In this document: positions 1,274 through 42,824 of the stretch, piece after piece
Position numbering within the stretch: position 1 is the stretch's first letter
How the letters are laid out: each line of letters opens with the position of its first letter
Virus record (IMG/VR): IMGVR_UViG_3300027734_000108
Coordinates: 1-49,405 of that record
DNA: 49,405 bases
Direction: 5' to 3' (one strand)
Source: a virus
Program-made: the position numbers and the translations under genes
The notes under the pieces: model-generated
The model's database searches: none
Told to the model about the DNA's origin: nothing
Seen by the model: only the letters and a program-made list of their open reading frames with translations

Positions 1274-2883
1274 TATATATTCTTTCCTGTTTTAATAGCT
1301 ACATCTACTTTTTGAATAGATAGCGGAGATCCGTTAATATCTGATTCAAATCCAATTTGTAATACTTTACCCGATCCTGAAGCATTAAACTTTAAACTAT
1401 CTAAAGCAATACCATTAGCATATTCTGCGATGCCGTATTCTGCTGTTCCGTATTCTGCAACAGTAATAGATTTTAACGTCAGTGTACTGCTGTTATAGTT
1501 ATTAGTATAGTCAAAGCCCCATTTAATAGAAATGACCTGACTACCGCCACCAATAACAACCATTCCTAGCTTCTTAAGAATCTTAATCGATGTTGGTTGA
1601 TCGAAGTCAAAGTAATTAGTGTAGTAAGACCAACGATAGCTAGAACTGTTATCTTGGTAGTTATTGTATTTACCTATATAACCAAGTTGTCCAACATATA
1701 AATCACGATTCTCTAATACACAGAAAGAACGTGGATTGATATTCTTCCAAATAGTTGTTCTTGCTGCACCATTCTCTAACACACCACGGGTGTCAAAGCA
1801 ATAAGTAAAACCTACTGATGGTAACGATAAGAGATAAAAAGCATCTGTGGCATAATACACAGCTTTGATATTCTTTAATGTCTCAGTTGCTACGTTAGCA
1901 ATTAAATCATCACGTACATTCTTAGACACATCACGCAACGGCATAGATTTCTCTTGAATCAAACGACCAAGAGACTGTACACCAGTTTCAGATAAGAACA
2001 TAATATCTGAACCAAACACAGAAGCTACAGAATCACGAGCAATACAGCCAACACCTTTAATGACATCTTGTAATGTCATTGTTGCTGGATCTCTAGGATT
2101 AGCATAAATTAAAATAGTTCTAGAACACATAATAATTAAGAAACCATTATGTGCTGCTAATGCTACGATACCGTCACCAGTAGGAATAACGGTACTAATG
2201 TCTAAGTAACCTGAAGTACCTGTAGTAAAGTTAGATGGATCTTGTAAGTCACTAAAGTAAACAGTTTGATTATCACCTGTTATGTTAGCAGTCCACATAC
2301 GTCCATAAGCTGTTATAGCACAGTTAGGCAGGAATGTACTTACAGAATATCCTGTAGGTAAAGTACCAACATCACCTAATCTTTGAAAACCGTAAGACCC
2401 AGTATGGTTATGTGTTGCATTACCTAGTTTATGGTAAACCAATACTGGATGCCCTGCCTGAACAAACACAGCATGAGCAGAAGTATTACCACTCCGATTG
2501 TACGGCATACCAGCAATCTGCCAGTTGTCATCAGTAATTGTATATGCAGTTGTTCCTGTACCAGCAGCGTCTACAACTGTTGTGTCTACGGCTGCTGTTA
2601 GTGTAGTTGTACCAGTATAAATTTTATTACCAGCACAACTAAATACTACGTTACCGTCAGACTTAACAAACTCAAATACAGTTTTAACTGCTGGACTAGA
2701 CGTAATTGCTGTTGTGTTTACTTTGGTCCAACCTTTACGAGCACCAATACGACCATATTTATCGACTACGCAATTAAACGCTTCTAGTGCATACCCACTT
2801 GTGAGCTGTACTGAAGCATCTTGAATATTAAGTCCAGAGAACCCCGGAGCTTGTATTGACCCTGTTAATAGAGCTTCTGCCAT
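1273..2883 (-). CDS. Tail stabilisation / hub-like protein (copy A)
   Basis: A 536-aa protein with the arrangement and style of podovirus tail-stabilisation (P22 gp10-type) proteins: an N-terminal segment on origin and genome ordering (GFSGLNIQD, GRIGARKGW) and repeated beta-rich blocks. It sits directly after the tail adaptor gene and overlaps it as TAATG (start 2883). Copy B is almost identical. A tail-tube or beta-propeller hub role is inferred from position, size and composition. Confidence 0.65.
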   Translation of the reverse strand: MAEALLTGSIQAPGFSGLNIQDASVQLTSGYALEAFNCVVDKYGRIGARKGWTKVNTTAITSSPAVKTVFEFVKSDGNVVFSCAGNKIYTGTTTLTAAVDTTVVDAAGTGTTAYTITDDNWQIAGMPYNRSGNTSAHAVFVQAGHPVLVYHKLGNATHNHTGSYGFQRLGDVGTLPTGYSVSTFLPNCAITAYGRMWTANITGDNQTVYFSDLQDPSNFTTGTSGYLDISTVIPTGDGIVALAAHNGFLIIMCSRTILIYANPRDPATMTLQDVIKGVGCIARDSVASVFGSDIMFLSETGVQSLGRLIQEKSMPLRDVSKNVRDDLIANVATETLKNIKAVYYATDAFYLLSLPSVGFTYCFDTRGVLENGAARTTIWKNINPRSFCVLENRDLYVGQLGYIGKYNNYQDNSSSYRWSYYTNYFDFDQPTSIKILKKLGMVVIGGGSQVISIKWGFDYTNNYNSSTLTLKSITVAEYGTAEYGIAEYANGIALDSLKFNASGSGKVLQIGFESDINGSPLSIQKVDVAIKTGKNI

Positions 2884-3536
2884 TAGTTAGTCCACTCACC
2901 TTCTTCAAGGTAACGACCACTCTCAAGAGAAATAGCGTCACTTAAAGAAGCTCTATACATAGCAAAAGCTTCGTTAGAAGCAATACCGCCATCTTCACCA
3001 CGCTCACCCATTGCACGGGCTAGAGCGTTAAATATGACTGGCTCTGAAGGAATTAATAAAGCATCTGAGTTCGCAGACAAAGGTACTTGGGGTTTAATGA
3101 TATTGAAACGAAGATTGTACACACCATCAGGAATGGGATATAAATCTACTTGTGTATCTCCGTTAGCGTTAGTACCATTAAAGTTGTAATATATTGGAGC
3201 ACCTTTTTGGGCTGATTGCAATAAAAACAATTTATTCATTTGAGCCGAAGTTTGTAACCTAAGCATATTATCACTAGTGTCGTCAATCACGTCTAGTACA
3301 CGAAAACGTTGACCTGAACCAACTAACACATAGTTAAAGACATCTGCACCAGTTACAGCAGATAATGTATCTGATAATGCATTCCAGTTATAAGCATCTT
3401 CACATTGACGCTTTGCATCATTAATGAATTTACCAATAAGCTTTGAATAGTTATTGTCAGACACAGAAGAGACCTCGTTTTCACGAAGTCTAATCAGTAC
3501 ATCATTTACTAATTGTAAGTAGGTCGGGGATGCCAT
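2883..3536 (-). CDS. Head-tail adaptor / tail tubular protein A-like (copy A)
   Basis: A 217-aa protein beginning with a helical segment (YLQLVNDVLIRLRE) followed by FINDAKRQCEDAYNWNAL, a pattern common in podovirus head-completion or tail-tube A proteins that bridge portal and tail. The C-terminal half carries a helical NALARAMGERGEDGG segment. The ATG at 3536 has an AAGGA Shine-Dalgarno and a strong sigma70-like promoter just upstream, so this gene heads its own transcript. Confidence 0.7.
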   Translation of the reverse strand: MASPTYLQLVNDVLIRLRENEVSSVSDNNYSKLIGKFINDAKRQCEDAYNWNALSDTLSAVTGADVFNYVLVGSGQRFRVLDVIDDTSDNMLRLQTSAQMNKLFLLQSAQKGAPIYYNFNGTNANGDTQVDLYPIPDGVYNLRFNIIKPQVPLSANSDALLIPSEPVIFNALARAMGERGEDGGIASNEAFAMYRASLSDAISLESGRYLEEGEWTN

Positions 3537-3545
3537 GGTGTCCTT

Positions 3546-3574
3546 ATTTTAACACATTTTATACTAAATGTCAA
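3546..3574 (-). promoter_or_regulatory. Sigma70-like late promoter (copy A)
   Basis: On the minus strand TTGACA (3569-3574) is followed by a 17-bp spacer and TAAAAT (3546-3551). It sits just ahead of the AAGGA ribosome site and ATG of the tail adaptor gene. Copy B keeps the same geometry at 41489-41517 (TTGACT, 17 bp, TAATAT) despite changes around it, which supports function. Confidence 0.8.
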
Positions 3575-3587
3575 GGTTTTTATATAC

Positions 3588-4016
3588 TTAAGAGTATGCT
3601 CTTGTACCAGCTTTATCAATAATCAAAGCTTGTTTACGTGGTGGTCTAGAAGGCATGTCAGGAACGCTTATATGCGTCCATGAGTTGAATTCTCTGATAA
3701 TCTGGTCGTAACCTATGTCAGAAGCCATGATAGCCTTCACAACCTCATCTGGAGTCATTCCGGGGACTCTGATGTCAGCAGCACAGCCAATACGATGTTG
3801 ACTAGTATCTTTAGAACCAACAGAGTCGTTAACCTGCTTAGACCTAAAGCCAGAGTTAATCATTACAGGCTTACCACCGAGTAAAGTCTTAACTTGCTCA
3901 AGCACAGCTGCTAATCTTGTTAAGTTAGCTATTTCAGTTGCATTAGGTGTATTGTCAAACTCTCTGTGAGAAGTAGCAGTGAGTTCTTCAAGAGTAAAGT
4001 GATCACTTAGATTCAT
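3588..4016 (-). CDS. Endolysin, M15-family D-Ala-D-Ala carboxypeptidase-like (copy A)
   Basis: A 142-aa peptidase M15_3-type protein. It shows the family pattern: INSGFRSKQVN, the zinc motif SQHRIGCAADI (His-x6-Asp) and a second His in WTHIS. It should cleave peptide cross-links of peptidoglycan at lysis. Its start overlaps the holin stop as ATGA, giving a coupled holin-endolysin pair. No signal peptide is visible, so export through the holin lesion is expected. Copy B differs mainly in the N-terminal third and a few C-terminal residues. Confidence 0.88.
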   Translation of the reverse strand: MNLSDHFTLEELTATSHREFDNTPNATEIANLTRLAAVLEQVKTLLGGKPVMINSGFRSKQVNDSVGSKDTSQHRIGCAADIRVPGMTPDEVVKAIMASDIGYDQIIREFNSWTHISVPDMPSRPPRKQALIIDKAGTRAYS

Positions 4017-4414
4017 TTTGCTTTATTCCTAATCTCTGTAACTTTCTCAAGTGTACGAGAGCCGAAATATGCCCCAAAAACAAGCATTCCCCAATTTCCT
4101 AGCAAAGTTACGTAACTCTCATTAGCATTCAATCCAAAGGCTGACATCATTGCAAAGACAAAGTAACCACCAAGAATTGCTATTAAAGCCATTGGTCTAA
4201 TGTTTTTAGATAGCCACGAATCAGAAGTCATATCCGCTTTCCAGCGGTCTGACACATTGTTCTGCTCATTCATATCAGCTTGTAGGTCAGCAAGTTTACC
4301 TTCCTGAGCTAACTTAGCTAGGTCTAACTGTGCTTGTGCTTTCTGTGCAGGGTCAGGAATCAGCTTATCAACAAGCTTCATTCCTACTCCAATGATGTCA
4401 TCTATTCCAAACAT
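4013..4414 (-). CDS. Holin of the 3-TM (gene-transfer-release) type (copy A)
   Basis: A 133-aa protein with an amphipathic, charged N-terminal half (about 1-70) and the family-typical segment DSWLSKNIRPMALIAILGG that begins the first membrane helix. Two more hydrophobic segments follow (near 90-120). This matches the holin-of-3TMs family. It would form inner-membrane lesions that release the M15 endolysin encoded directly downstream. Copy B differs at one or two residues. Confidence 0.85.
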   Translation of the reverse strand: MFGIDDIIGVGMKLVDKLIPDPAQKAQAQLDLAKLAQEGKLADLQADMNEQNNVSDRWKADMTSDSWLSKNIRPMALIAILGGYFVFAMMSAFGLNANESYVTLLGNWGMLVFGAYFGSRTLEKVTEIRNKAK

Positions 4415-4423
4415 TATTTACCC

Positions 4424-4876
4424 CTAAAGTTTATAACCCCAAGTACAAAACCACGCAATAACAGCAGCAGCAGCAAAACAATAGAACTGTACTCTTCTTA
4501 CAGCTTTTAAATCGTGTTGGTATTCGTCTTTGTTTTTCTGTTCCATCTTCTCTATATCTAACTTTATTCTAAGTAATGCTTCCCACTCTTTAGCACCATG
4601 CTTCTTAATAAAATCTATCTTTATCTTTGCTTCTTGGTCACTTATTTGTTTCTTGTGATTCCAATCGTTTAAAGCTTTAATGAGAGCAGTTTCTTTTCTA
4701 AACTCTGCTTCTCTAGCTGCTCTACGTCTTTCTGTTGCTTTTCGCTGTGCAACGTCTGCTGCATCTTGCTGTATAGCTTCTACTTGTTTACCTAATGCGT
4801 TACCACTCTCACGACCAGCATCAAGACTACCAGTGAGTAGCTTTACTCCTTCGTGTATTCCGTATGGATCTGGCAT
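4424..4876 (-). CDS. Coiled-coil protein with C-terminal membrane anchor (copy A)
   Basis: A 150-aa protein. Residues about 15-125 are strongly charged and helical (coiled-coil likely), followed by one hydrophobic helix near residues 130-147 and a short Lys-Leu tail. It stands between small basic proteins and the holin, so a lysis-accessory or spanin-like role is possible. However, the anchor is at the wrong end for a classical i-spanin and no signal is visible. Function not recognised. Near-identical in copy B. Confidence 0.6.
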   Translation of the reverse strand: MPDPYGIHEGVKLLTGSLDAGRESGNALGKQVEAIQQDAADVAQRKATERRRAAREAEFRKETALIKALNDWNHKKQISDQEAKIKIDFIKKHGAKEWEALLRIKLDIEKMEQKNKDEYQHDLKAVRRVQFYCFAAAAVIAWFCTWGYKL

Positions 4877-4881
4877 TCAAC

Positions 4882-5127
4882 TTAACAATCCCACTTCTTG
4901 AGTGCTAATGATTTTCTTGTTGGTCGACCTTTATCGTCCTTCATAGGACCCTTAACACCTTCCATACGAGCACAGAAGCTCTTACGTCTACCAGCAGCTT
5001 TAGGTGACTTTGCAGCTTCCTTAGCGGACACTGGTGGCTTTAATTTAGAACCAGTAGTCTTATTGTAGTAGTCTCTACCTTTTTGATTAAGACCGCCTTC
5101 AGGGTTCTGATATGCCTTCTTAACCAT
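4882..5127 (-). CDS. Small basic DUF6321-like protein (copy A)
   Basis: An 81-aa Lys/Arg-rich protein with the recurrent phage pattern GGLNQKGRDYYNKTTG, then KSPKAAGRRKSFCARM and KKWDC at the end. It matches the DUF6321 style seen in many phages and is probably DNA- or virion-associated. Function unknown. It overlaps the upstream gene as TAATG. Copy B is nearly the same. Confidence 0.65.
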   Translation of the reverse strand: MVKKAYQNPEGGLNQKGRDYYNKTTGSKLKPPVSAKEAAKSPKAAGRRKSFCARMEGVKGPMKDDKGRPTRKSLALKKWDC

Positions 5128-5279
5128 TATTTCTTCTTTGCAGTCTTAGCGGATTCTTTAAATGCTTTAGCAGTAGGAGCACCTTTGCTACCAACCTTAC
5201 GCATCTTCTCTCCAGAGCCTTCAGCTATGCGTTTCTTCTTAGCAGCGATATTGGCATACAAACCCATCTTAGTAGCCAC
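5127..5279 (-). CDS. 50-aa Lys-rich small protein, GTG start (copy A)
   Basis: Starts at GTG (5279) inside the end of the upstream gene and ends TAATG-coupled to the next. The product contains [19 protein letters not shown] and [11 protein letters not shown], a pattern seen in small phage proteins of unknown function. An in-frame ATG four codons later is an alternative start here, but copy B has AAT at that codon. The GTG is therefore the conserved start. Function unknown; a virion or DNA-binding role is possible given its charge. Confidence 0.7.
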   Translation of the reverse strand: MATKMGLYANIAAKKKRIAEGSGEKMRKVGSKGAPTAKAFKESAKTAKKK

Positions 5280-5493
5280 GCATTGCACCCATCTTCTTAG
5301 CTGGCTTAGCTTTAGGAGCTGTCATATTCTTATTAGTTTTAGGCTTCGCCATCTTAGCTTCGCTCATAGCGATAGCTACTGCTTGCTTACGAGATTTGAC
5401 TACTGGACCACCTTTACCACTATGTAATCCACCAGCTTTGTATTCAGACATTACTTTACCGATCTTAGCGGATTGTTTTTTAGTTTCTTTCAT
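5269..5493 (-). CDS. DUF6496-like small basic protein (copy A)
   Basis: A 74-aa protein with the DUF6496-type core: KVMSEYKAGGLHSG, a Gly-Pro-Val turn and KSRKQAVAIAMSEA, followed by a Lys/Ala/Pro-rich tail ending KKMGAMRGY. Function unknown. The equivalent slot in copy B (43215-43385) encodes a shorter relative that keeps the KQAIAIALS helix and the MGAKRGY ending. A GGAG Shine-Dalgarno precedes the ATG. Confidence 0.7.
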   Translation of the reverse strand: MKETKKQSAKIGKVMSEYKAGGLHSGKGGPVVKSRKQAVAIAMSEAKMAKPKTNKNMTAPKAKPAKKMGAMRGY

Positions 5494-5502
5494 GGGTTCT
5501 CC

Positions 5503-5847
5503 TTAGTAAGTATAAGATACTGCTGGTGCATTGTCTACTTCAAGCGTAATGATTACTGATGCTGTACTTGCTGCTTCTGATTGAACTCTGATCTCATCGC
5601 CTTCTTCAAGAGTAACATAAGAATTATCAAATTTAAGAAAGGACTTAGATGATATGTCATAAGATGCAACAATAACAACTTCAGTGTTAGCACTTTTATC
5701 GTACCACCAAGCACTAAAGTGTTTAGTAGACGCAGTTGAATTACTAGCAAATAATAAAGTTAAGTTCGCAACTTGCTTAGTAGGAACAACAAATAATGTT
5801 GTCTTAGTATTAGCTGTAAGGTTACGACCTACGGAATATGAACGCAT
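5503..5847 (-). CDS. Beta-rich small virion protein (copy A only)
   Basis: A 114-aa protein rich in Ser/Thr/Val with alternating hydrophobic strands and an EEGDEIRV turn. It resembles small decoration or appendage proteins found in phage structural blocks. Function is inferred from composition and position only. Copy B lacks it and carries a 105-aa beta-rich protein plus a DUF5856-like protein in the same slot, so this position accepts interchangeable cargo. Confidence 0.5.
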   Translation of the reverse strand: MRSYSVGRNLTANTKTTLFVVPTKQVANLTLLFASNSTASTKHFSAWWYDKSANTEVVIVASYDISSKSFLKFDNSYVTLEEGDEIRVQSEAASTASVIITLEVDNAPAVSYTY

Positions 5848-5853
5848 AAGACC

Positions 5854-6063
5854 TTAAGCAAAATGTTTAAAAATCCAATCCTTGAACAGAGTCAAGAATA
5901 TACCGATACCAGATGCTAAGAAAGCTACTCCACCTAAGAAGCCTTTATAACGCATCATCTCATCACGCACTGCATGAATACAGTCCAGTATCTCTTTCTG
6001 ACTTTCCTGTAGCTTTTCTACTTCAGCTTCTAACACAGCGATACGCTCTACGTTCTCACTCAT
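5854..6063 (-). CDS. XhlA-like coiled-coil/TM lysis accessory protein (copy A)
   Basis: A 69-aa protein: residues 1-40 form a charged coiled coil (VERIAVLEAEVEKLQ), followed by a single hydrophobic helix (about 45-62) and a KHFA end. This matches the haemolysin XhlA family, which cooperates with holins at the membrane. The start overlaps the XkdW-like gene as ATGA. Copy B differs by two residues although its upstream neighbours are entirely different. Confidence 0.7.
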   Translation of the reverse strand: MSENVERIAVLEAEVEKLQESQKEILDCIHAVRDEMMRYKGFLGGVAFLASGIGIFLTLFKDWIFKHFA

Positions 6064-6221
6064 GCTAATTGTTCTTCAGTTGGTCGAGATAAAGTAGGGT
6101 GTTCCCATTTAGCAATGTAATCGCCTTTGCCGTCTGAATCGTTTTGTAGTGTGATTACAGTTTCAAAATCTTTTTGTGTCAGACTAGGATATACAGTCAT
6201 TATTTTTTCGTATAAATTCAT
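6060..6221 (-). CDS. XkdW-like small tail-fibre-associated protein, copy A (1)
   Basis: A 53-aa protein. It starts with MNLYEKIMTVYPSLTQKDF and contains LQNDSDGKGDYIAKWEHP, the hallmark of XkdW-like proteins that follow phage fibre genes and are thought to assist fibre assembly. ATG at 6221 overlaps the upstream stop (TGATG); its own stop overlaps the next start (ATGA). A second member lies at 8028-8192. Confidence 0.7.
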   Translation of the reverse strand: MNLYEKIMTVYPSLTQKDFETVITLQNDSDGKGDYIAKWEHPTLSRPTEEQLA

Positions 6222-6748
6222 CATGCACCTCTTACCAAAGAACCACTAAAATTACCAAGCGTAGAATTTGTAGCTAAATAACCAGTTACGCTTGATTTCA
6301 CATACATTTCAAAATAATCAGTTGTTCCATTAGCAGAAACAACAATCGCAACTGTTAATGCTGAATACCTACTTTCTAAAGCACGACCATTAACAGAAGA
6401 ATAAATACTTCCATTTTTATATACTGCTAAAAATGTATCAGCATTTGTTGCTGAATTTGAAGCAAATGTTACAAAACAATTTAGTTGATAATAACCAGCA
6501 ACAGTTGGAGTAAAACGATAGTTAGTTGTTGGGTCGTAATTATTATTAGTATCAAAAATTTCTGTGTTGTAATTAACCTTTGTCCATGTATTTGCACTTG
6601 GTGTTTGGTCTGTTGATGCGTAAGCACTAAACGCAGGACCAGTACCAGCTACACCAGTAGCTAATTCAGCTTGAGTTATTATTGCATCAGGTAAACCACC
6701 AGCCACTAAGCCTGTGATTGTTCCATCGCCTGAAATAATAGTAGGCAT
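6221..6748 (-). CDS. C1q-like head protein of a tail appendage (copy A only)
   Basis: A 175-aa protein. After a short N-terminal Gly-rich part, residues ~45-175 form a C1q/TNF-like jelly-roll pattern: FDTNNNYD, then YRFTPTVAGYYQLNCFV, a YKNGS turn, NGTTDYFEMYV, and an LVRGA end. Such domains trimerise and bind receptors or glycans. Copy B has no equivalent here; its slot is filled by the 44552-45031 protein of a different type. This points to a change of receptor-binding tip. Confidence 0.68.
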   Translation of the reverse strand: MPTIISGDGTITGLVAGGLPDAIITQAELATGVAGTGPAFSAYASTDQTPSANTWTKVNYNTEIFDTNNNYDPTTNYRFTPTVAGYYQLNCFVTFASNSATNADTFLAVYKNGSIYSSVNGRALESRYSALTVAIVVSANGTTDYFEMYVKSSVTGYLATNSTLGNFSGSLVRGA

Positions 6749-6909
6749 TATGTATTCTCCGCAGGTAATGGAGTGTTACCTTCAGCTACCCATTTTAGGT
6801 AGGCTTGGTAGTCTGTGCTTTCTTCATTAAATTGAATTTGACCACCATCGGCAAGTCTTAAAACAGAATTAACTTTATTTGCTTCATTATTAAATATTAA
6901 TTTATACAT
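6748..6909 (-). CDS. Small fibre-associated protein with DYQAYLKWVAEGN motif (copy A)
   Basis: A 53-aa protein beginning MYKLIFNN. Its C-terminal half, TDYQAYLKWVAEGNTP, is shared with the 49-aa gene at 45031-45180 while the middle differs. It is TAA-ATG adjacent to the upstream fibre gene and TAATG-coupled to the C1q-like gene. Probably a fibre-assembly helper or linker, inferred from position. Function not established. Confidence 0.6.
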   Translation of the reverse strand: MYKLIFNNEANKVNSVLRLADGGQIQFNEESTDYQAYLKWVAEGNTPLPAENT

Positions 6910-8028
6910 TTATAGCTCCGAAGATGCAGTCCAATTACCAATTTGTCTGCCAATAACATTACCTTGACCGCTATTAACATAGGCTCTAAAGTTACCTGTG
7001 TTAACTAAATCAAAAGTTGGTGTTGCAGTTGTTACTGTTCCTGAACTATTCCCTACTTTCCATTGATTTATAGTTCCGTCATCGTTATATCCTGTTATTG
7101 TTGCTCCAGTTGCTCTTTTAGAAACAGTAAATCTAATAGTTTGCAATACATTTCCTGAACTTGATGTTCCACCAATAAAATCCCAGTTTCCAACCCCTGT
7201 TGATGCTCCTACCGCAGTATTAATATCGTAAGATTTTTCAAAATAGCGTTGGCAAAGATTTAGTTCTGTACCATATTGACGATACTCAAATCCAGTAGCA
7301 CTACTTCCTAATTCTAGTTGAACACCAGTCCATTGAATTGTTGCATTAAGTGTTGACAAAACTTGTGTTTGACCTGTTGCACCTAAATACAAAGCTGCTG
7401 CCCATGCTCCAGCAGTTCCTGAATAAGTTGAACCAGCAGCTAAACTCCAGTCAACTCGTATACCAATACCATTAGTTGTTAACCATGTTCCACTTGTATC
7501 TCCAGCAATGGTTATGGTTTCATACTCCCAAGTGTTTGCTGCTGAAATAGTATATGTATATGGGTATGATCTATTAGCAGCACTGTTTATTAAAACGCCA
7601 CCAAAAGTACCAGTTAAACTAGATTTAACCCAAAACGATAAAGTTATAGTTTTAGCATTAGCAGTGCCCCAACCCAAATCTGCAATGTTATATCCTTCTA
7701 TACTTTGTCTTACAACGCTATATTGTGTTGCCCCAATAGAAGCGTCTGCCGTAGTAATAGTAGCTTTTAAAGAATTAACAAAACTAGCAGGTGCATCTGT
7801 TACTTGCTGTAATGAAAAAATACCATCTGAACTATTATATCCAGCCCATCTATCAGTTGCAAATTGATCTGATCCTGTAACAGAAACAGCTGCACCAGCA
7901 TTTCTTTGGTCAATAACCATCGCACCATTGATAATGCGATTCTTCATAATAGAAGCGTTACCAGCACCTAGTATTCCACCGCTAGTAGAAGTCTGTATTA
8001 CATCAGCGTTTACTGTTCCGTATGGCAT
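6910..8028 (-). CDS. Tail fibre / receptor-binding protein with carbohydrate-binding-like domain (copy A)
   Basis: A 372-aa protein. Residues ~1-45 (MPYGTVNADVIQTST, NRIINGAMVIDQRNAG) are an attachment segment identical to copy B. Residues ~50-245 form a beta-sandwich-like stretch (KTITLSFWVKSSLTGTFGG, TITIAGDTSGTW, GVQLELGSSATGFEY) typical of phage fibres. The C-terminal 110 residues differ completely from copy B. The conserved base with a changed tip fits host-receptor switching. Confidence 0.72.
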   Translation of the reverse strand: MPYGTVNADVIQTSTSGGILGAGNASIMKNRIINGAMVIDQRNAGAAVSVTGSDQFATDRWAGYNSSDGIFSLQQVTDAPASFVNSLKATITTADASIGATQYSVVRQSIEGYNIADLGWGTANAKTITLSFWVKSSLTGTFGGVLINSAANRSYPYTYTISAANTWEYETITIAGDTSGTWLTTNGIGIRVDWSLAAGSTYSGTAGAWAAALYLGATGQTQVLSTLNATIQWTGVQLELGSSATGFEYRQYGTELNLCQRYFEKSYDINTAVGASTGVGNWDFIGGTSSSGNVLQTIRFTVSKRATGATITGYNDDGTINQWKVGNSSGTVTTATPTFDLVNTGNFRAYVNSGQGNVIGRQIGNWTASSEL

Positions 8029-8192
8029 TATGCTAGTTGCTCCGCAGTAGGTTTAGCTAGTGTAGGATGTTCCCATTTGGCAATATATGCACCTTGACCA
8101 TCATCTTGTAAATCAATAGTTCCAGTATCTAAACTAAAGTCATTAATAGTCAATGTTGGGTATATTGCTAAAATTTTGTCGTATAAACTCAT
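8028..8192 (-). CDS. XkdW-like small tail-fibre-associated protein, copy A (2)
   Basis: A 54-aa relative of the gene at 6060-6221: MSLYDKILAIYPTLT start, then GAYIAKWEHPTLAKPTAEQ. ATG at 8192 overlaps the C1q gene stop as ATGA, and its stop overlaps the next start as TAATG. Copy B's counterpart (46173-46340) shares the last third exactly but differs in the middle, suggesting the helper co-varies with its fibre. Confidence 0.7.
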   Translation of the reverse strand: MSLYDKILAIYPTLTINDFSLDTGTIDLQDDGQGAYIAKWEHPTLAKPTAEQLA

Positions 8193-8731
8193 GCTGCCCT
8201 CACTAAATAACCTTGAAAATATGTTGCATTAGCACCTGAATATACAAATTTATTACTTCCGCTTTCCTGTCTTACATATATTTCAAAATAATCTGTTGTT
8301 CCGTTTGCATACAATACTGCCGATACAAACCTTGACGGATAGGTAACTGCTGGAGAATTTAAATTTTCTTCTTTAAAATTCACTAAAGACCCACTTTTGT
8401 AAATCCAAGTTATTACTCTACCAACTGCTGTAACTTCTGATTGACCACTAAAAATAATTTGATAATAACCAGCTACATTAGGTGTAAAACGACTACTAGA
8501 AAAGCAATTTGCAGTATCAAAATCTTCTGTATCAAAAGTTACTTTAGTAGTAGTGCTTGTAGTTATAGCTTGATCACCGCTAGTTTTACTAGCACTAAAC
8601 GCTGGCATATTACCGCTAACCATTACTGTGCCAGCAGCAGCAGGAAGATTGATTGTATTAGTACCAGCAACGGCTGGAGCAGCTAAAGTAATAGCACCAG
8701 ATGTATCACCTGAAATTACGACTGAACTCAT
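8189..8731 (-). CDS. C1q-like appendage protein, SSVVISGDTSG N-terminus (copy A)
   Basis: A 180-aa protein. The N-terminal ~40 residues (SSVVISGDTSGAITLAAPAV) are a fibre-attachment segment shared with copy B. The rest is a C1q-like jelly-roll (FDTANCFSSSRFTP, AGYYQI, NGTTDYFEIYV, LVRAA) with different surface residues. I place the start at 8731, where ATG overlaps the upstream stop as ATGA. An upstream ATG at 8743 is possible but lies inside the previous gene's end. Confidence 0.7.
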   Translation of the reverse strand: MSSVVISGDTSGAITLAAPAVAGTNTINLPAAAGTVMVSGNMPAFSASKTSGDQAITTSTTTKVTFDTEDFDTANCFSSSRFTPNVAGYYQIIFSGQSEVTAVGRVITWIYKSGSLVNFKEENLNSPAVTYPSRFVSAVLYANGTTDYFEIYVRQESGSNKFVYSGANATYFQGYLVRAA

Positions 8732-10149
8732 AGAACCACCCATCTTTGACCTGAAGCAACTGTTACAGATTGACCACTAGCAATTGTCATAGGACCAACA
8801 CTCATGGCATTGTTTCCCGATGCTATTGAATAACTTGCAGCTACAGTTGCAGTGTTAACTATTAAACCATTGGAAGCTACTACTTGGCTTGCTGATAAAT
8901 CACCTGTGCTTGGCTTATACAAATATTTTGCATTGCTTGTATAAATCGTTGTAGGTGTGCCAGTAGTCGCTGCAGCAAATAAAGGATATAAGTTACTTGC
9001 TGTAGTTGTGTCGTTACTGAGTGCTGCACCACCAGCTACAGAAGCAGTAGATACTGCAGTGATTAAACCTTTACCATTTACAGTAATAACTGGAATGGAT
9101 GTAGTAGAACCAAAAGCACCAGTATTACTATTAACAGTTGCTAGAGTTGCATTAGTGATTGCAGTTCCAGTACTACCAGATAGAGTTAAATCTCCACCAG
9201 TAACAGAGATAGTACCTGAAACAGTACCCCAAGAAGTGTTAGTACCGTTGGTAGTTAAGAACTTACCAGAGTTACCTGTTTGACTTGGTGTGTATGAAGC
9301 TGCAGTTGTTGCTGAGTTGGCAGCGTTAGTTGCCGAAGTAGCTGCATTACTAGCTGATGTACTGGCATTAGAGGCTTGAGTTGTGGCAGTCGATGCAGAG
9401 CCACTTGCTGAGGTCGCAGAAGCTGCAGCGTTAGTCGCTGATGTACTAGCATTACTTGCTTGCGTAGTCGCTGTAGTGGCACTCGTAGAAGCGTTACCAG
9501 CCTGTGTAGTTGCTATTCCTGCTTGAGTGGTGGCTGTGCTTGCTGACGTTGCTGCGTTAGTTTCGCTGGTAGCTGCATTAGATGCAGAAGTAGAGGCGTT
9601 ACTGGCTTGAGTAGTCGCTGTAGAAGCACTTCCTGAAGCGGATGTAGCGGAGTTGCTTGCATTTGTAGCAGATGTGGAAGCAGCCGATGCACTGTTGGAA
9701 GCATTAGTTGCTGAAGTTGATGCTGCACTTGCTGAAGTGGAAGCATTAGATGCTTGAGTAGAAGCTGTAGTTGCTGAGGTACTTGCATTGGAAGCCTGTG
9801 TAGTTGCTGTTGAAGCAGAACCCGAAGCAGCAGTTGCGGAAGCTGCAGCAGCAGTTGCGGAAGTACTTGCGTTAGATGCTTGTGTAGTTGCTGTAGACGC
9901 ACTGTTAGATGCGTTAGTAGCTGATGTGCTTGCTGAAGAAGCTGAGTTGCTTGCGTTAGTTGCTGAAGTAGAAGCGTTACTTGCTGAAGTACTCGCAGCA
10001 CTGGCTGAGCCAGAAGCAGCACTAGCCGAAGCAGCAGCAGCGTCTGCATCAGCTTGGGCTTCAACAGCTAAATCACGAATTAATAGAGCTTCACTGGCTG
10101 AGTCTGCTGTAGCATCACCTGCTCCACCTGCACCACGATAGATGCTCAT
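8728..10149 (-). CDS. Long Ala/Ser/Thr-repeat tail fibre protein (copy A)
   Basis: A 473-aa protein. Residues ~1-35 (SIYRGAGGAGDATADSAS) form the attachment end. Residues ~36-285 are dozens of short Ala/Ser/Thr/Asn repeats (STSATNASNSA-like), probably a trimeric coiled or beta-fibrous shaft. Residues ~290-473 are a beta-rich head with ITVNGKGLITAVST and a terminal GQRWVVL. Copy B keeps the length exactly but shuffles repeat units, as expected for recombination between near-repeats. Its DNA produces long spurious frames, which are not genes. Confidence 0.75.
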   Translation of the reverse strand: MSIYRGAGGAGDATADSASEALLIRDLAVEAQADADAAAASASAASGSASAASTSASNASTSATNASNSASSASTSATNASNSASTATTQASNASTSATAAAASATAASGSASTATTQASNASTSATTASTQASNASTSASAASTSATNASNSASAASTSATNASNSATSASGSASTATTQASNASTSASNAATSETNAATSASTATTQAGIATTQAGNASTSATTATTQASNASTSATNAAASATSASGSASTATTQASNASTSASNAATSATNAANSATTAASYTPSQTGNSGKFLTTNGTNTSWGTVSGTISVTGGDLTLSGSTGTAITNATLATVNSNTGAFGSTTSIPVITVNGKGLITAVSTASVAGGAALSNDTTTASNLYPLFAAATTGTPTTIYTSNAKYLYKPSTGDLSASQVVASNGLIVNTATVAASYSIASGNNAMSVGPMTIASGQSVTVASGQRWVVL

Positions 10150-10316
10150 TATTCAGCCTTAGATTTAACTGCTGTTTTCTTTTCTTTGATTTCTACAACA
10201 GGTTTAACCTCTTCGAGGACCTCTACGTAGCCGGGGTGTTGACGCATAGTACGAATATCGTGCTCTAAATCAAACTCTACTGTATTATTGGTTTCCGTAC
10301 ATTTAAAAATTGCCAT
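10149..10316 (-). CDS. 55-aa conserved protein between capsid and fibre (copy A)
   Basis: ATG at 10316 follows a GGAG ribosome site, and its TAA overlaps the fibre start as TAATG. The protein contains FDLEHDIRTMRQHPGYVEV and a Lys-rich tail ending KSKAE. Copy B encodes the same protein. It resembles small phage proteins found next to capsid genes; function unknown. Confidence 0.7.
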   Translation of the reverse strand: MAIFKCTETNNTVEFDLEHDIRTMRQHPGYVEVLEEVKPVVEIKEKKTAVKSKAE

Positions 10317-10342
10317 GTTATATCTCCACAGTTTATTTTAAG

Positions 10343-10393
10343 GCTCTTGGCAGAGCACTAAAGTAAACTGCCCCACTCTTCTGAGCAGGGCAG
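10343..10393 (-). terminator. Tandem hairpins after the capsid gene (attenuator/terminator, copy A)
   Basis: Read on the minus strand, CTGCCC/GGGCAG pair at 10368-10393 with a nested CTC-TTCT-GAG, followed by a T-rich stretch and a second GCTCT/AGAGC hairpin (10343-10356). Both are kept in copy B. The weak T tract suggests partial termination, limiting read-through from the abundant capsid message into the fibre genes. Confidence 0.5.
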
Positions 10394-10410
10394 AACCTAG
10401 TTTCTAGGTA

Positions 10411-11331
10411 TTAGGCTGGAACAGCGATTGCAACAGCAGAACCGTCACGCAACTCTTTAACACCGTAGATTGTGTCTGCAGTGAACAAGTTACCGAGGTA
10501 CTCTTGTTTGTATTGAGTTTGTGAACGAACAGCCATTTGCTCAGCTAATACTGCGAAGTCACGATGACCTAGCAATGCAACACGAGCAGCACCTGAACCT
10601 GATGTTGTATCAGCGTTAGTAGAAACGAATACTGGAATACCATATACGTTACCAATTTCGCCTGAACGGATTGTGTTACCACCACCGATTTCACCAACGA
10701 ATGCTTGCTCAGTGAAACGAGCGATACCCATCAATGTGTTACGTGTTGAAGGCGGAACGATCAAGAAACGACCATCCATTGGTGTGTCATTGTCATCCAA
10801 ACGCTGGATTGAACGACGGATTGCTGCATCAGTCAAAGCTGCTTCGTTGTTAGAAGCTGCAACATAAGCAGTTGTACCATTTGAACCAATGTAAGCTGTG
10901 TCATAAGCAGCAGTACCTGCACCGCCGTTAACACCACGACCCAACTGGATCAAAGATGTGTCTACTTGACGAGCCAAAGCGTAACCAGCGTCATCAGTGT
11001 AGAATTGACGCATAGAAGCTAAAGCTTGTACATCAACAATATCTTCGATCAAGATTGAATACTCAAAATGCTTATCAATCAATACGTTGATTTCAGTTGC
11101 TGTATCTGTATTCAATGTTACTTGAGTAGAAGCAGCTTTTGCGTTAGCGGAACCACGACCCGGTTTAGGGATGTGGAGTGTATCACCTTTTTTGCCTTTG
11201 AAAGACAATTTTTTGATGAGGTTTGCTAGAACTAAGTTCTTTTTGTAGGTCGCAACTACTTCGTCGGACCAAATCTCTGGGATAAACTTATCGCCAGTTG
11301 TTTTTGTTTGATGATCTGTACCTAAAGCCAT
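10411..11331 (-). CDS. Major capsid protein (copy A)
   Basis: A 306-aa protein with features of podovirus capsid proteins. The N-terminal region (PEIWSDEVVATYKKNLVLANL) and the KGDTLHIPKPGRG segment are typical. A helical LIEDIVDVQALASMRQ follows and the C-terminal beta-rich end includes AVLAEQMAVRSQTQYK. ATG at 11331 has a GGAG site. It lies directly downstream of the scaffold gene, the usual order. Copy B differs by only four conservative changes over the visible part, so capsid is strongly constrained. Confidence 0.88.
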   Translation of the reverse strand: MALGTDHQTKTTGDKFIPEIWSDEVVATYKKNLVLANLIKKLSFKGKKGDTLHIPKPGRGSANAKAASTQVTLNTDTATEINVLIDKHFEYSILIEDIVDVQALASMRQFYTDDAGYALARQVDTSLIQLGRGVNGGAGTAAYDTAYIGSNGTTAYVAASNNEAALTDAAIRRSIQRLDDNDTPMDGRFLIVPPSTRNTLMGIARFTEQAFVGEIGGGNTIRSGEIGNVYGIPVFVSTNADTTSGSGAARVALLGHRDFAVLAEQMAVRSQTQYKQEYLGNLFTADTIYGVKELRDGSAVAIAVPA

Positions 11332-17810: not shown

Positions 17811-17909
17811 GGATTATCTTATTATCTTTCCAGCTCTGGGAACTTGATTGACACTCTCACAAAGGGAGGACTCTGGCACAAAACTGGCAAACCCTCCAAA
17901 ACGCATTAA

Positions 17910-17929
17910 AACGCTCTCTGAGCTGTTTT
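17910..17929. repeat. Direct repeat, left copy
   Basis: AACGCTCTCTGAGCTGTTTT, identical to 21015-21034. Similarity extends leftward (ACCCTCCA-AACG) with a 10-base insertion in this copy. The pair brackets the amidoligase cassette about 3.1 kb apart. Confidence 0.85.
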
Positions 17930-18145
17930 GACTGTTTATGGGACTAGGACACTCTCTCGCTCTGAACTCTAGTAATCCATATTCTATAAGGCTCTCAGGA
18001 CTGGTCATCTCCAGGCTTTTCTGTAGTGTTGTGTCCTGGTCACAATGCTGGCTCAGAACATGAGCTAACCCTCAAAGTGTGATACCCTCGAGACTCCCTA
18101 AGGGGAATTTGAAAATGCTGTTTCCTAAATATGGAGGTATTAAAA

Positions 18146-18265
18146 ATGCTGGACTTTCTAAAAATGGTTTTAGGTAGTGACGATGTGACATGGGCTGAGG
18201 TCTTGCTGGGCGTGGCTCTGGCACTGGCTTTCTGGGCTGGACTTGTAATTATTCTTTCAATCTAA
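18146..18265 (+). CDS. 39-aa single-pass membrane peptide
   Basis: ATG at 18146 preceded by GGAGG at good spacing. Residues 1-16 are amphipathic with Asp/Thr/Trp, and residues ~17-38 form one continuous hydrophobic helix (EVLLGVALALAFWAGLVIIL). It ends 11 bases before the amidoligase ATG, which has its own GGAGG, so the two are probably co-transcribed. No family recognised. It may anchor or localise the amidoligase system, or act on its own at the membrane. Confidence 0.6.
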   Translation: MLDFLKMVLGSDDVTWAEVLLGVALALAFWAGLVIILSI

Positions 18266-18276
18266 ACGGAGGTTTT

Positions 18277-19683
18277 ATGACTACTCAACTAATCGAGGCT
18301 TTTCACGCATTCCATAGAATGTCTGGACTTGTGACTCCAGAGGTACGGAGATCAAAAGTGAGCGACTTAATGAAGTCGTTTATCAACTCCAGCAATTCAA
18401 AAAAGACTTACACAATCGTCCACGCTCGACACTGGCTGGAGACACGGAGAGAGGCTCAGGAAGTCGGACACTCTCTCGCTGAGATGGTTAAGGCTCAGGA
18501 CTTTGACTCCGCTCGGGACTTGCTAAACGATAACGAGACTGTCCGCAATCGATGGGGTCGCAACGGAGGTCTGGACATGGCAGACTGGTTTAACGAGAAA
18601 TTCCCAGACTCTCCAGAGGTCTTTAGTTGTGACGATTGCAACTGGCTGGAATGGGACGATGACGGACACTGGGCAAACGATGGCGATCACCATATATGCG
18701 ACAGTTGCACGAGCGAGAACTACACCTACAGCGATCACCAAGACACCTACATCACGAACGAAGAATGGGAGGACGAGCAAGAGCGACTGAGGGAAGAGGA
18801 CGAGGAGGAGGAGCGGAACAATTCCGTGATCGGTGACTATCACTCCAGCAAGCGGATTCTCTCCAGAATTCCCAGTTCTTTCGACACTCGCAAAACTCCC
18901 ATTCTTATGGGACTGGAGCTGGAGATGGAGGTTAAATCTGGGGATCGTGAAGAACACGCCACGGACTTAATCAACGCTCTGGGATACCCTAAAGGGGAGC
19001 GGTATTGTGCGATTGAAGAGGACGGATCGCTCCATAACGGGTTTGAGCTGGTCACTGGCTGGACTGGTCTAGATGTCCACGCACAACAGCTCCAGCACTT
19101 TAAAAACCCCATTCGTGGGCTGAAGTCGCATGACACCCAGACTTGTGGACTCCATGTCCATATTTGCAAAAAAGGCATGTCTCTCTTTCACGCTGTGAAG
19201 ATGGTTTTATTTATCAACGACTCAGGCAACCAAAGGTTAGTAAGGTCTCTGGCTCGGAGAGACTCGTCCAGATACTCACAAGTTAAAAATAAAAAAGCTG
19301 GATACGAGTGGCTGAAGGACGCCAAGAACGGCAACAATCTCCAGCACTTAAACGCTGATCGGTACGAGGCTCTGAACTTTCAAAACGCTCGGACTGTAGA
19401 GTTCAGAATGTTTAAGGGAACGCTCCGATACGAGACGATGATGGCGTGTCTAGAGTTCACTTATGCGACTTGGTTTTTTTGTCGTGACACTGGCACTAAT
19501 CAACTCACAACGGAGAATTTTCTGGAGTTCATTTGCAAGGCTGAGAACTTAAGCGACACGAAGTTTTTACGCCAATATCTCACGGAGAAAAACTGGACTC
19601 TGGCTGATCTCGGAAAGATAAAAAACAATCCCAGATTTGACTCGGTAAAACAATCGCCAGAACTCGCAACTTGCGAACAATAA
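18277..19683 (+). CDS. Amidoligase (COOH-NH2 ligase, Amidoligase_2-like) with Zn knuckle
   Basis: A 468-aa protein. Residues 1-110 are helical and unassigned. Cys118-x2-Cys121 and Cys141-x2-Cys144 form a likely Zn-binding module. Residues ~162-180 are strongly acidic. The C-terminal amidoligase domain (~208-455) has GLELEME (212-218), EEDGSL (247-252), FELVT (256-260), CGLHVHI (290-296), an Arg-rich stretch near 328 and EFRMFKGTLR (375-384). This follows the ATP and metal binding pattern of the glutamine-synthetase-like ligase fold. The family joins a carboxylate to an amine with ATP. The gene next door encodes a class II amidotransferase that could supply ammonia. The substrate is unknown. 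Confidence 0.82.
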   Translation: MTTQLIEAFHAFHRMSGLVTPEVRRSKVSDLMKSFINSSNSKKTYTIVHARHWLETRREAQEVGHSLAEMVKAQDFDSARDLLNDNETVRNRWGRNGGLDMADWFNEKFPDSPEVFSCDDCNWLEWDDDGHWANDGDHHICDSCTSENYTYSDHQDTYITNEEWEDEQERLREEDEEEERNNSVIGDYHSSKRILSRIPSSFDTRKTPILMGLELEMEVKSGDREEHATDLINALGYPKGERYCAIEEDGSLHNGFELVTGWTGLDVHAQQLQHFKNPIRGLKSHDTQTCGLHVHICKKGMSLFHAVKMVLFINDSGNQRLVRSLARRDSSRYSQVKNKKAGYEWLKDAKNGNNLQHLNADRYEALNFQNARTVEFRMFKGTLRYETMMACLEFTYATWFFCRDTGTNQLTTENFLEFICKAENLSDTKFLRQYLTEKNWTLADLGKIKNNPRFDSVKQSPELATCEQ

Positions 19684-19705
19684 TTTTTTAAAGGAAACCA
19701 AAATC

Positions 19706-20734
19706 ATGTGTTTATTAGTCACGCAATTAAGCAACTCTCCAGCTCTCCCAGAGGTCTGGCTTAAAAACTTTCACGCTAGTAATTCCGATGGCGTGGGCGT
19801 TATGTATGTAGAGGGTCAATCCCTTGTAATTGAAAAATGTCTCCCAAAGTCGGCTGAAGATTTTGTGAACTTTTACTACTCTCATATTGCTGGGAAAGAT
19901 TGTGCTTTCCATCTCCGCATGAGAACTCACGGAGCGACTGATCTTGAGAACTGTCACCCTTACGAAGTGCTGAACGCTAAACAGCACGGGATTGATCTCT
20001 GGCTCATGCACAACGGCATTCTTCATACCGACAATGTGAAAGACACAACCAAGAGCGACACTTGGCACTACATACGGGACTACCTCCGTCCTATGCTGGC
20101 TCACAATCCAGAGTTCTTTATCACTCCAGAATTTTCGGAGTTGATCGGCTCGCATATTGGCTCATCAAATAAGTTCGTTTTGATGGACAACCAAAACAGG
20201 CTCGTGACGATTAACGAAGACGCTGGAGTGTACTGGGGAGGTCTCTGGCTCTCGAATACTTACGCATGGACGGCAAGCCCTACAGCAACCAAGAAATACG
20301 ACTCCAGCCCAGAGCTGGCACTGGAACAAGTCAATGAGTCTCCAGTAGTCAAAACTTATCCAGTGACGGGCTACGGAACAATTCCAAGATGGCAAAACAA
20401 CTATTCCTATGATTACGAAAATCACTGGGAAAATCAGAGTTTTGGAATATCTCCCAGAGACACGGAGGACGATATTTATTCTGGGCTAGATGATTTGATG
20501 GAGGCTGGCTTACACAAGGCTGGCTCTCTTTCCATATATCAAGCTCGGTCTTTCGTCCGTACTTTCGGTCTGGACTCTTTCCTCGATATTGTGGCGATGG
20601 CGATTGACACTGAAATTGACGAGGACTGGTTTGTCAAAATTCTCTCGGACTTTAGGCTGGCACGGGAGACACTCCCATTTTTGATTGACGAGGAAAAAGC
20701 AATCGAAAAAGAAAGGGCGATGGCTTACTCATGA
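19706..20734 (+). CDS. Class II glutamine amidotransferase domain protein
   Basis: A 342-aa protein. Cys2 directly after the initiator Met is the expected N-terminal nucleophile. Further class II motifs are SDGVG (27-31), HLRMRTHG (69-76), MHNGIL (101-106), SDTW (117-120) and SSNKFVLMD (153-161). The domain ends near residue 190; the C-terminal ~150 residues are unassigned and acidic. It should release ammonia from glutamine. AAGGA precedes the ATG, 22 bases after the amidoligase stop, so both form an operon. There is no attached synthase domain, so the amidoligase is the logical partner. Confidence 0.82.
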   Translation: MCLLVTQLSNSPALPEVWLKNFHASNSDGVGVMYVEGQSLVIEKCLPKSAEDFVNFYYSHIAGKDCAFHLRMRTHGATDLENCHPYEVLNAKQHGIDLWLMHNGILHTDNVKDTTKSDTWHYIRDYLRPMLAHNPEFFITPEFSELIGSHIGSSNKFVLMDNQNRLVTINEDAGVYWGGLWLSNTYAWTASPTATKKYDSSPELALEQVNESPVVKTYPVTGYGTIPRWQNNYSYDYENHWENQSFGISPRDTEDDIYSGLDDLMEAGLHKAGSLSIYQARSFVRTFGLDSFLDIVAMAIDTEIDEDWFVKILSDFRLARETLPFLIDEEKAIEKERAMAYS

Positions 20735-20811
20735 TTGATCGAGACCCGTCCACGCTCTTGGAGCGATGGATCACAAAACTGAAAGAACTCTACATATTCT
20801 GGTTTTACTAA
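20731..20811 (+). CDS. 26-aa micro-ORF coupled to the amidotransferase
   Basis: ATG overlaps the upstream stop as ATGA. The peptide is amphipathic with an aromatic C-terminus (LKELYIFWFY). It ends 15 bases before the terminator hairpin. The coupling is suggestive, but so short a frame could be chance. No family recognised. Confidence 0.3.
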   Translation: MIDRDPSTLLERWITKLKELYIFWFY

Positions 20812-20825
20812 TCTCCCAGAACTTG

Positions 20826-20856
20826 AAAGCCCTCCAGAATATCGGAGGGTTTTTTT
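20826..20856 (+). terminator. Rho-independent terminator of the amidoligase operon
   Basis: CCCTCC (20830-20835) pairs with GGAGGG (20844-20849) across an 8-base loop, followed by seven or more T. Flanking A/T bases extend the stem. Confidence 0.85.
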
Positions 20857-20895
20857 ATTGCCTGAATGTCTGGGGACTCTCCCAGAGGCTCAGGG

Positions 20896-20986
20896 CTGGC
20901 TCTGGTACTGGAGCTGGCTCTGGTACTGGCTCGGTCTCCAGTGCTGGCTCTGGCTCTGATACTGGCTCTGGAGCTGGTTTGCTGGT
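20896..20986. repeat. CTGGNN hexamer tandem repeat
   Basis: Twelve CTGG words fall in 20881-21000, mostly in exact 6-bp phase, including an 18-bp unit of three hexamers repeated twice. It lies after the terminator. A long plus frame across it is Gly/Ser/Ala-repeat and lacks a ribosome site, so I treat it as non-coding. Role unknown. Confidence 0.7.
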
Positions 20987-21014
20987 ATCAGGACACGCTC
21001 CAGCAACCCTCCAG

Positions 21015-21034
21015 AACGCTCTCTGAGCTGTTTT
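21015..21034. repeat. Direct repeat, right copy
   Basis: Identical to 17910-17929 over 20 bases and preceded by the same ACCCTCC context. It marks the right edge of the compositional island. Confidence 0.85.
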
Positions 21035-21133
21035 CCTGATCGTGGTGATACCTATACCCCAGAAAAGGGTAAAACGCCTCCAAAGCCCTAAAAATGCCCT
21101 TAAAATCGATTGTCATTTTAAAACAACAATTTT

Positions 21134-37572: not shown

Positions 37573-37932
37573 TTAAGTTCCTTCTTTCATAATTAATACC
37601 TCATCTACTTTATCTGGATTAGTTTCTTCTGTTGCATGAATACAAAACCATACTGCGTCTTGTAACGCTGTAATGGAATGGTGTACCCCTTTGTGTATAG
37701 TAATACAAGCAGGAGCAGTGTACTTTATAGCTTTTGCATCTGTTTTAACAATTACTTCACCTGCAGCTAAAATGCTTAAATGGTCGTACTCGTGAGCATG
37801 ACTTAAAGCAAAATAACCTTTAGGCAACATCATTTGTTTAGCGTACACTCCGCTAGAGAAATGGTGCTGTGTTCCTAAATCTACTTCAAAAGTACCTTGT
37901 AGTTCTTTAAACTGTTCAGATACGGTGTGCAT
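37573..37932 (-). CDS. Cupin-domain protein
   Basis: A 119-aa single-domain cupin. HAHEYDHLSILAAGEV carries the first metal-binding motif (two His and an acid) and VHHSITALQDA the second His. I start it at ATG 37932 (AAGGA upstream) rather than at the longer frame. It overlaps the oxygenase gene by 17 bases, so the two are coupled. It might bind a metal or sugar or act with the oxygenase. Confidence 0.75.
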   Translation of the reverse strand: MHTVSEQFKELQGTFEVDLGTQHHFSSGVYAKQMMLPKGYFALSHAHEYDHLSILAAGEVIVKTDAKAIKYTAPACITIHKGVHHSITALQDAVWFCIHATEETNPDKVDEVLIMKEGT

Positions 37933-41479: not shown

Positions 41480-41488
41480 GGTGTCCTT

Positions 41489-41517: not shown

Positions 41518-41530
41518 GATTTTTATCTAT

Positions 41531-42357: not shown

Positions 42358-42366
42358 TATTTACCC

Positions 42367-42819: not shown

Positions 42820-42824
42820 TCAAC

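Follow-up and report, generated by a model that had tools for sequence, protein, structure and literature searches.

Positions 18146-20811 of the IMG/VR virus record IMGVR_UViG_3300027734_000108, a contig of 49.4 kb analysed over its whole length of 49,405 nucleotides (nt; the window), carry a compact operon that encodes an Amidoligase_2-family ligase and a class II glutamine amidotransferase (GATase) between two very small open reading frames (ORFs). The preferred reading, to which we assign a probability of roughly 0.4, is that this phage operon specifies a glutamine-dependent amide-bond-forming enzyme that modifies the host envelope by means of a membrane-placed ligase-GATase pair. The genes follow each other on the + strand in the order 39-amino acid (aa) peptide, ligase, GATase, 26-aa micro-ORF and terminator (Table 1). 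This organization had been described by a sequence-only reading of the same DNA and all its elements were found again where that reading had placed them. The operon and its non-coding flanks also have a strong bias in the use of short words, designated here as the dialect, whose existence is well supported.

The ligase scores 29.6 bits against the Pfam family PF12224 (Amidoligase_2; cut-off 22), which is matched by 31/31 aligned relatives (E≤0.01). Its AlphaFold2 model (predicted local distance difference test score, pLDDT, of 82.9) features a glutamine synthetase (GS)-like domain at residues ~201-450. Over residues ~201-441 the model resembles YbdK (1tt4 and 1r8g; Z 11.4 and 11.3, respectively), plant glutamate-cysteine ligase (Z 10.9) and glutamine synthetases (Z 9.5-11.1). 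Gamma-glutamylmethylamide synthetase, the Pup ligase PafA and the depupylase Dop are other fold neighbours. The Foldseek search gave an E-value of 3.7e-4, and E-values down to 4e-16 were obtained against phage amidoligases. Profiles of the ligase and of the GATase had no match among the sequences of solved structures. The positions G212xE214xE216, D249xS251, G255xE257, G291xH293xH295, R328, N367 and T373xE375xR377 are invariant over 26 sequences with identities down to 21%. The amidoligase motifs noticed originally are thus borne out by a predicted GS-like fold that retains the active-site residues. The proposed zinc knuckle (C118-x2-C121-x19-C141-x2-C144) was equally confirmed, its four cysteines being kept in 31/31 clade members. 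The N-terminal ~200 residues had been considered unrecognisable. This stands for residues 1-110, which are variable and helical, but not beyond them, where the zinc knuckle precedes the GS-like domain that starts at ~201. A LIM match just under the cut-off in L095, a distant bacterial ligase, and the CxxC pairs of other ligases suggest that N-terminal zinc fingers also exist outside this clade.

The M1-C2 start of the GATase is invariant in 30/30 close relatives and in all 26 sequences of a wider set. R71, N82-H84-P85, H102-N103-G104 and D118 are also invariant. Residues 250-341 form a helical C-terminal domain. Foldseek aligned the GATase model to GlmS (E 1.6e-5) and to the GlmS glutaminase domain (E 4.1e-5, probability 1.00), and the model also matches PurF and EgtC. 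Since the score against Pfam GATase_4 (PF13230) is 17.5 bits, below the cut-off of 23, the protein is assigned by its motifs and fold to the class II superfamily, outside that Pfam family. The invariant Cys2 and the N-terminal nucleophile (Ntn) glutaminase fold uphold its initial description as a Cys2 class II amidotransferase.

The two enzymes are tightly associated. Among the 80 loci found in the GATase search, most of the loci compared being metagenomic contigs, the ligase gene is immediately upstream in all but L044, whose contig begins 94 nt before the GATase gene. The ligase-alignment search identified a GATase at 61/61 loci with at least 700 nt available downstream. The intergenic gap is mostly 2-58 nt. 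The predicted folds have the active site and Cys2, and the pair recurs in other genomes; the lack of either would have spoken against the sequence-only reading. Another record, IMGVR_UViG_3300009183_000876 (L007/L012), encodes both window proteins at 100% identity. The amidoligase-GATase pair has been known in phages since Iyer 2009, as cited by PMC10580990, and both genes are carried by MEP401, MEP402 and more than 30 metagenomic genomes (PMC10580990). Taken alone, the two enzymes, here carried by freshwater phages, represent a known kind in its ordinary form; what sets the operon apart is its compact, peptide-linked organization and the dialect.

The small ORFs flanking the pair were searched with a strict test: one predicted helix, 25-50 codons, a ribosome-binding site, and a location just upstream of the ligase gene or just downstream of the GATase gene. 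In clusters defined at 80% GATase identity with both sides readable (n=29), such a micro-ORF was found in 13/29, never on both sides, versus 5/215 flanks of control genes (genes of at least 150 aa from the same contigs). The frequencies are 6/33 upstream of the ligase (control 0/119; Fisher p 7e-5) and 7/30 downstream of the GATase (control 5/96; Fisher p 0.008), p-values that are optimistic because clusters are not independent lineages. Looser inspection yields more micro-ORFs. The membrane peptide is thus a recurring partner of the pair rather than a local accident, as its co-occurrence in the 13 clusters attests, and the one-helix micro-ORF as a frequent flank of the pair looks new. No literature report of it was found, Iyer 2009 and the Marvin paper being covered through the papers that cite them.

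Five peptide types were assigned by eye. Type A (motif TWxE...LSI), to which the 39-aa peptide belongs, is found upstream, as are types B and C, which have a VR motif, while types D and E are located downstream. Type A homologues occupy the equivalent position in L008-L011, L036 and L075 (TWxE..LSI), their C-terminal LSI being strictly kept. On a quick tree of the pair the peptide labels are clustered (14 changes for all eight labels versus 43 in shuffles). The 26-aa micro-ORF has homologues in L008, L009, L010 and L075. When the 39-aa peptide is compared to that of L036 the proportion of synonymous differences (pS) is 0.86 and that of non-synonymous differences (pN) 0.28; the comparison to L009 is less clear (pS 0.46, pN 0.29). 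For the 26-aa micro-ORF compared to L010 and L075, pS is 0.94-0.99 and pN 0.26-0.34. The values found with L036, L010 and L075 together (pS 0.86-0.99 versus pN 0.26-0.34) indicate purifying selection on both small ORFs. A different micro-protein of 30-40 aa resembling a zinc ribbon (RCPIC..KRWG..ViC..CR; CPIC...C..C) is encoded 3′ of the GATase gene in several phages that have no downstream membrane peptide (L020 from 6203 onward, L025 6574-6663, L030, L032, and L036 from 6972 onward).

The pair is also found outside phages. In three Polynucleobacter isolates (L091, L092, L093) it adjoins a tyrosine integrase gene, with a relaxase or type IV coupling protein gene further on; these copies lie in an integrated conjugative or mobilisable element. 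The next two genes code for SIR2 and HerA in L092 (identified by PADLOC) and in L093 (by sequence), and a HicB gene is nearby in L091. In the quick tree the Polynucleobacter copies nest within the aquatic phage clade, which makes a transfer of the module between phages and these mobile elements probable. Polynucleobacter may be guessed from them as a host of the freshwater phages with the module. Its presence in Polynucleobacter mobile elements looks new. Further copies were found in Clostridia, Brachyspira and Bacteroidetes bins.

A plausible sequence of events can be proposed. The GATase would hydrolyse glutamine via Cys2 and release ammonia. The ligase would activate a substrate carboxylate with ATP and join it to the ammonia or to a primary amine, and the zinc knuckle might recognise the substrate or a partner. 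The one-helix peptide would place the pair at the inner membrane; the target would then probably be a membrane-proximal carboxylate, either of a lipid-linked cell-wall precursor or of an envelope protein. The product would alter the host envelope, favouring this phage over its competitors. The steps differ in strength. Amide-forming activity, fed by glutamine and dependent on ATP, is very likely judging from the residues and the predicted folds. Membrane recruitment by the peptide is evenly poised, and we put forward the envelope target tentatively. The envelope was chosen because of the peptide and of the precedent set by staphylococcal murT and gatD, whose products, a Mur-ligase-like protein and a glutamine amidotransferase, bring about the amidation of peptidoglycan (PMC3267633). 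The cell-wall idea was published before (PMC10580990, PMC11318856); Iyer 2009 and the Marvin paper, as cited by PMC10580990, are the source of both the cell-wall/superinfection and the secondary-metabolite ideas. Several observations weigh against this proposal: the activity assigned to the clade is read from residues and fold; the loci examined had no recognisable cell-wall or envelope gene next to the pair; neither one phage subclade nor the Polynucleobacter copies yielded the membrane peptide, which is therefore not essential to the chemistry; and peptide sequences differ between clades and may not form one family. Compared to the larger phiEco32-type clusters, this version of a pair on record in phages since 2009 is compact, with two enzymes and micro-ORFs, and lends itself better to tests; the membrane peptide that recurs beside it indicates where to look for the substrate.

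Other readings of the pair make different use of the same evidence. It could make or modify a soluble small molecule in an auxiliary metabolic role (e.g., a gamma-glutamyl-type amide, or nitrogen use), the peptide being incidental. YbdK and gamma-glutamylmethylamide synthetase among the fold neighbours of the ligase, the gamma-glutamyl cyclotransferase and ATP-grasp genes of related clusters, and the nitrogen-metabolism role argued for a chronic phage (PMC10945688) all point in this direction. We consider it rather unlikely given that the membrane micro-ORF recurs above chance and that the window yielded neither a cyclotransferase nor a RimK-type gene. The ligase might instead amidate or conjugate a peptide or protein, be it from the host, from the virion or the micro-peptide of its own operon. 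A conserved small peptide within the operon, as in systems resembling those of ribosomally synthesised and post-translationally modified peptides (RiPPs), the strict conservation of the type A LSI terminus, and the kinship of the fold to PafA and Dop would suit it. The C-termini of the other peptide types differ, however (LFK, VFR, FMA and others), and some clades yielded no such peptide, which is awkward if the peptide is the substrate; this option is unlikely.

A conflict module common to phages and mobile elements, serving superinfection exclusion, defence or counter-defence by any chemistry, would explain why copies of the phage clade adjoin a mobile-element integrase in Polynucleobacter next to SIR2 and HerA genes or near HicB. 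Defence genes are commonly sited in the cargo slots of such elements. Nevertheless, no defence model of PADLOC-DB 2.0.0 matches either protein, in the window or in L091, the three related isolates represent one or two events, and adjacency is not function. We regard a conflict role as improbable. The membrane-placed, envelope-modifying enzyme remains the reading that we prefer.

The dialect, the oddest trait of the locus and one that does not figure in the sequence-only reading, was detected as a set of strongly over- and underrepresented words. With the rest of the phage as reference, the window block should hold 4.2 copies of GAGG, 1.0 of CTCTC, 2.3 of CTGGC and 18.5 of CTGC; the observed counts are 27, 18, 25 and 0, respectively. 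In 35/50 phage loci the tetranucleotide profile of the pair is more distant from that of its contig than every control window, and in 43/50 its composition bias is above that of any control window. Identical 6-mers were then counted relative to synonymous-codon shuffling, which keeps the protein and the codon usage. Reuse of 6-mers in the window is 1.74 times the expectation (z 15.4; 1.76 on a second run), compared to 1.05-1.26 for control gene pairs. These statistics were devised after the anomaly had been seen; of the loci, all but the first test it independently. Phage copies of the pair reuse short sense-strand words 1.2-2.0 times relative to the codon-shuffle expectation, whereas a ratio above 1.25 was obtained for only ~4% of 254 other ORFs with a similar test at the level of genes. 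Peptide types A, D and E have median ratios of 1.69-1.75, type C 1.37, type B 1.18 and the peptide-less subclade 1.33; the median of the mobile-element copies is 1.12 and that of other bacterial copies 1.14. Where no peptide was recognised, phages other than those of the peptide-less subclade reach 1.73, and the dialect does not simply track the peptide. High word reuse also occurs elsewhere in Marvin, away from its amidoligase pair (L178 6001-8400 and 36001-38400; L004 844-1731).

The vocabulary is shared along the whole operon. A model trained on the ligase gene scores the GATase gene positive, and vice versa. Favoured words are present in all three codon phases. The block extends from a few hundred nt 5′ of the ligase gene to ~250-450 nt 3′ of the GATase gene, micro-ORFs included, and its non-coding flanks score higher in the sense orientation at 19/20 loci upstream and 17/20 downstream, with a small difference in several of them. 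Each lineage has its own favoured words: similarity of dialects is high only above ~70% protein identity and is otherwise unrelated to phylogeny. Some of the avoided words are shared: beyond codon usage and over 21 cassettes, sense-strand CTTC is found at 0.29 of expectation (low in 20), TCCT at 0.52 (low in 21/21), CCTG at 0.42 and CCTC at 0.44, compared to 0.87-1.08 in controls. The window and L011 (75% DNA identity) have 30 and 29 copies of GACT, only 12 of them at the same site, and synonymous divergence of the cassette relative to L009 and L010 is 0.60-0.74, like that of neighbouring genes. Words found at new sites despite ordinary synonymous divergence imply that the vocabulary is maintained and not passively inherited.

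Several potential causes of the dialect were discarded. Control genes avoid 4-bp palindromes equally or more, and L031 is palindrome-enriched, in disagreement with avoidance of palindromes or restriction sites. Slippage or local tandem copying does not account for an excess of 7-mer identity that is about equal at 7-60 nt and at 1800-2700 nt. Codon usage is excluded by the synonymous-codon shuffling, minimum free energy z-scores of mRNA folding resemble those of control genes, and CTCT, GCTC and ACTC are enriched rather than depleted, contrary to an avoidance of Rho-type C/U-rich sequences. It is not a trait of all amidoligase-GATase pairs, as it was not seen in MEP402, Marvin, PaP3, phiEco32 or the bacterial copies, including those in mobile elements. 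The tetranucleotide distances in 35 of the 50 phage loci would fit recently acquired foreign DNA and nothing more, but the excess of word reuse survives codon shuffling and is rare in other ORFs, and the ordinary synonymous divergence with vocabulary at new sites shows that recent acquisition is not a sufficient cause; we find this explanation very improbable. A lineage-specific sense-strand vocabulary kept by a selective or mutational process acting on the transcript or the coding strand of the operon is possible, if on the doubtful side. Shared avoided words and lineage-specific favoured words would make the operon distinguishable from the rest of the genome, and a sequence-selective nuclease or silencer is an example of an agent that might read them. 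We know of no process that produces such an operon-wide vocabulary. If the dialect holds up, an operon-wide vocabulary is kept through near-saturated synonymous change in a single gene module of a single phage clade and is lacking in the mobile-element copies; this would suggest that phage DNA or RNA is subject to a sequence-selective process not yet recognised. The dialect island looks new: no report of it was found in the literature, where Iyer 2009 and the Marvin paper were accessible through citing articles.

The operon is the first rightward transcription unit and adjoins leftward structural genes, at the site where these diverge from the rightward replication genes. In MEP402 the pair is directly upstream of replication genes. 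The location beside the divergence point suggests early expression of the module. The terminator hairpin (within 20825-20854) has a folding energy of -16.6 kcal/mol (z -2.98). It is absent from the list of a simple consensus scanner; the counts of the sigma-70/terminator scan resembled those of shuffles and gave no information. A perfect 20-nt direct repeat (AACGCTCTCTGAGCTGTTTT) is found at 17910-17929 and 21015-21034, close to both edges of the dialect block; it could be an insertion trace or just part of the repetitive vocabulary. The ends of the record, 1-11246 and 37920-49405, are diverged copies of one late-gene block, mostly 89-95% identical with some stretches less so, and the first 100 bases recur exactly at 37920. 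The true genome is probably ~38 kb long, with an assembly that continued beyond the genome start into sequence of a sister strain. The duplicated ends do not include the cassette.

Table 1. Features of the amidoligase-GATase operon and its surroundings in the window.
Feature	Position	Strand	Basis
39-aa single-helix membrane peptide, type A (MLDFLKMVLGSDDVTWAEVLLGVALALAFWAGLVIILSI)	18146..18265	+	ORF with GGAGG-type ribosome-binding site; ATG at 18146, stop ends at 18265 (alternative ATG at 18131 gives 44 aa)
Amidoligase_2-family ligase, 468 aa	18277..19683	+	PF12224, fold, alignments
Zinc-knuckle coding stretch, ligase residues 118-144	18628..18708	+	Four invariant Cys
Class II (Ntn) glutamine amidotransferase, 342 aa	19706..20734	+	Fold and invariant residues
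26-aa micro-ORF (MIDRDPSTLLERWITKLKELYIFWFY)	20731..20811	+	Its ATGA overlaps the GATase stop codon
Intrinsic terminator	20825..20858	+	Hairpin CCCTCC/GGAGGG followed by a T-run
Dialect block	17830..21040	+	Genes and non-coding flanks; edges approximate

Among known systems, phiEco32 and the LUZ24-like phages (PaP3, tf, UFV-P2) likewise encode an Amidoligase_2 protein and, after it, a class II GATase within a podophage early region. Their clusters contain in addition genes for a COOH-NH2 ligase, a RimK-like ATP-grasp protein and a gamma-glutamyl cyclotransferase, whereas no COOH-NH2 ligase, RimK-type ATP-grasp or GGACT cyclotransferase gene was found in the 49.4-kb record, which may be incomplete (PaP3 was the positive control of the PF14395 search). 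PaP3 and phiEco32, unlike the window, have no dialect. Two other loci carry larger gene sets. L100, from a Brachyspira bin, encodes a GATase, two tandem amidoligases and a gamma-glutamyl cyclotransferase in a single operon (6426-10806) that resembles the LUZ24/phiEco32 clusters. L006 (Stenotrophomonas phage StenR_269) has two class II GATase genes and an amidoligase gene in one region (4749-10312), together with a gene annotated as L-glutamine synthetase, a D-Ala-D-Ala-ligase-like gene and, upstream, a cyclotransferase-like gene.

The adjacent amidoligase and GATase of MEP401/MEP402 and of mycobacteriophage Marvin (gp105-106) are ~26-31% identical to the window proteins over the matched parts; these phages have an ordinary composition and no close one-helix micro-ORF by the criteria used. 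The nearest named phage is ctgrD200 (MW202733, Manatee Spring), whose ligase and GATase are 32% and 33% identical and encoded in the same order. Its dialect is weak at most, with a ratio of 1.48 on its longest ORFs (which overlap) and a word reuse within whole-genome controls. The nearest precedent found for the dialect is provided by the end zones of cluster E and L mycobacteriophages, which are self-similar and different from the rest of the genome (PMC4841201). Like the window block they are phage segments with their own tetranucleotide usage. Repetitive GC-rich k-mer blocks drive at least one case there (PMC4841201), while the window bias is gene-wide, independent of frame and attached to one gene pair across many phages. 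Regarding the proposed chemistry, MurT-GatD of Staphylococcus aureus works by a similar principle, in which an ATP-activated carboxylate receives glutamine-derived ammonia on a membrane-linked substrate. Its folds are those of a Mur ligase and of a CobB/CobQ-like class I GATase (PMC3267633 and general knowledge). The window pair combines a GS-like ligase with a class II GATase and hence is not a member of the MurT-GatD system.

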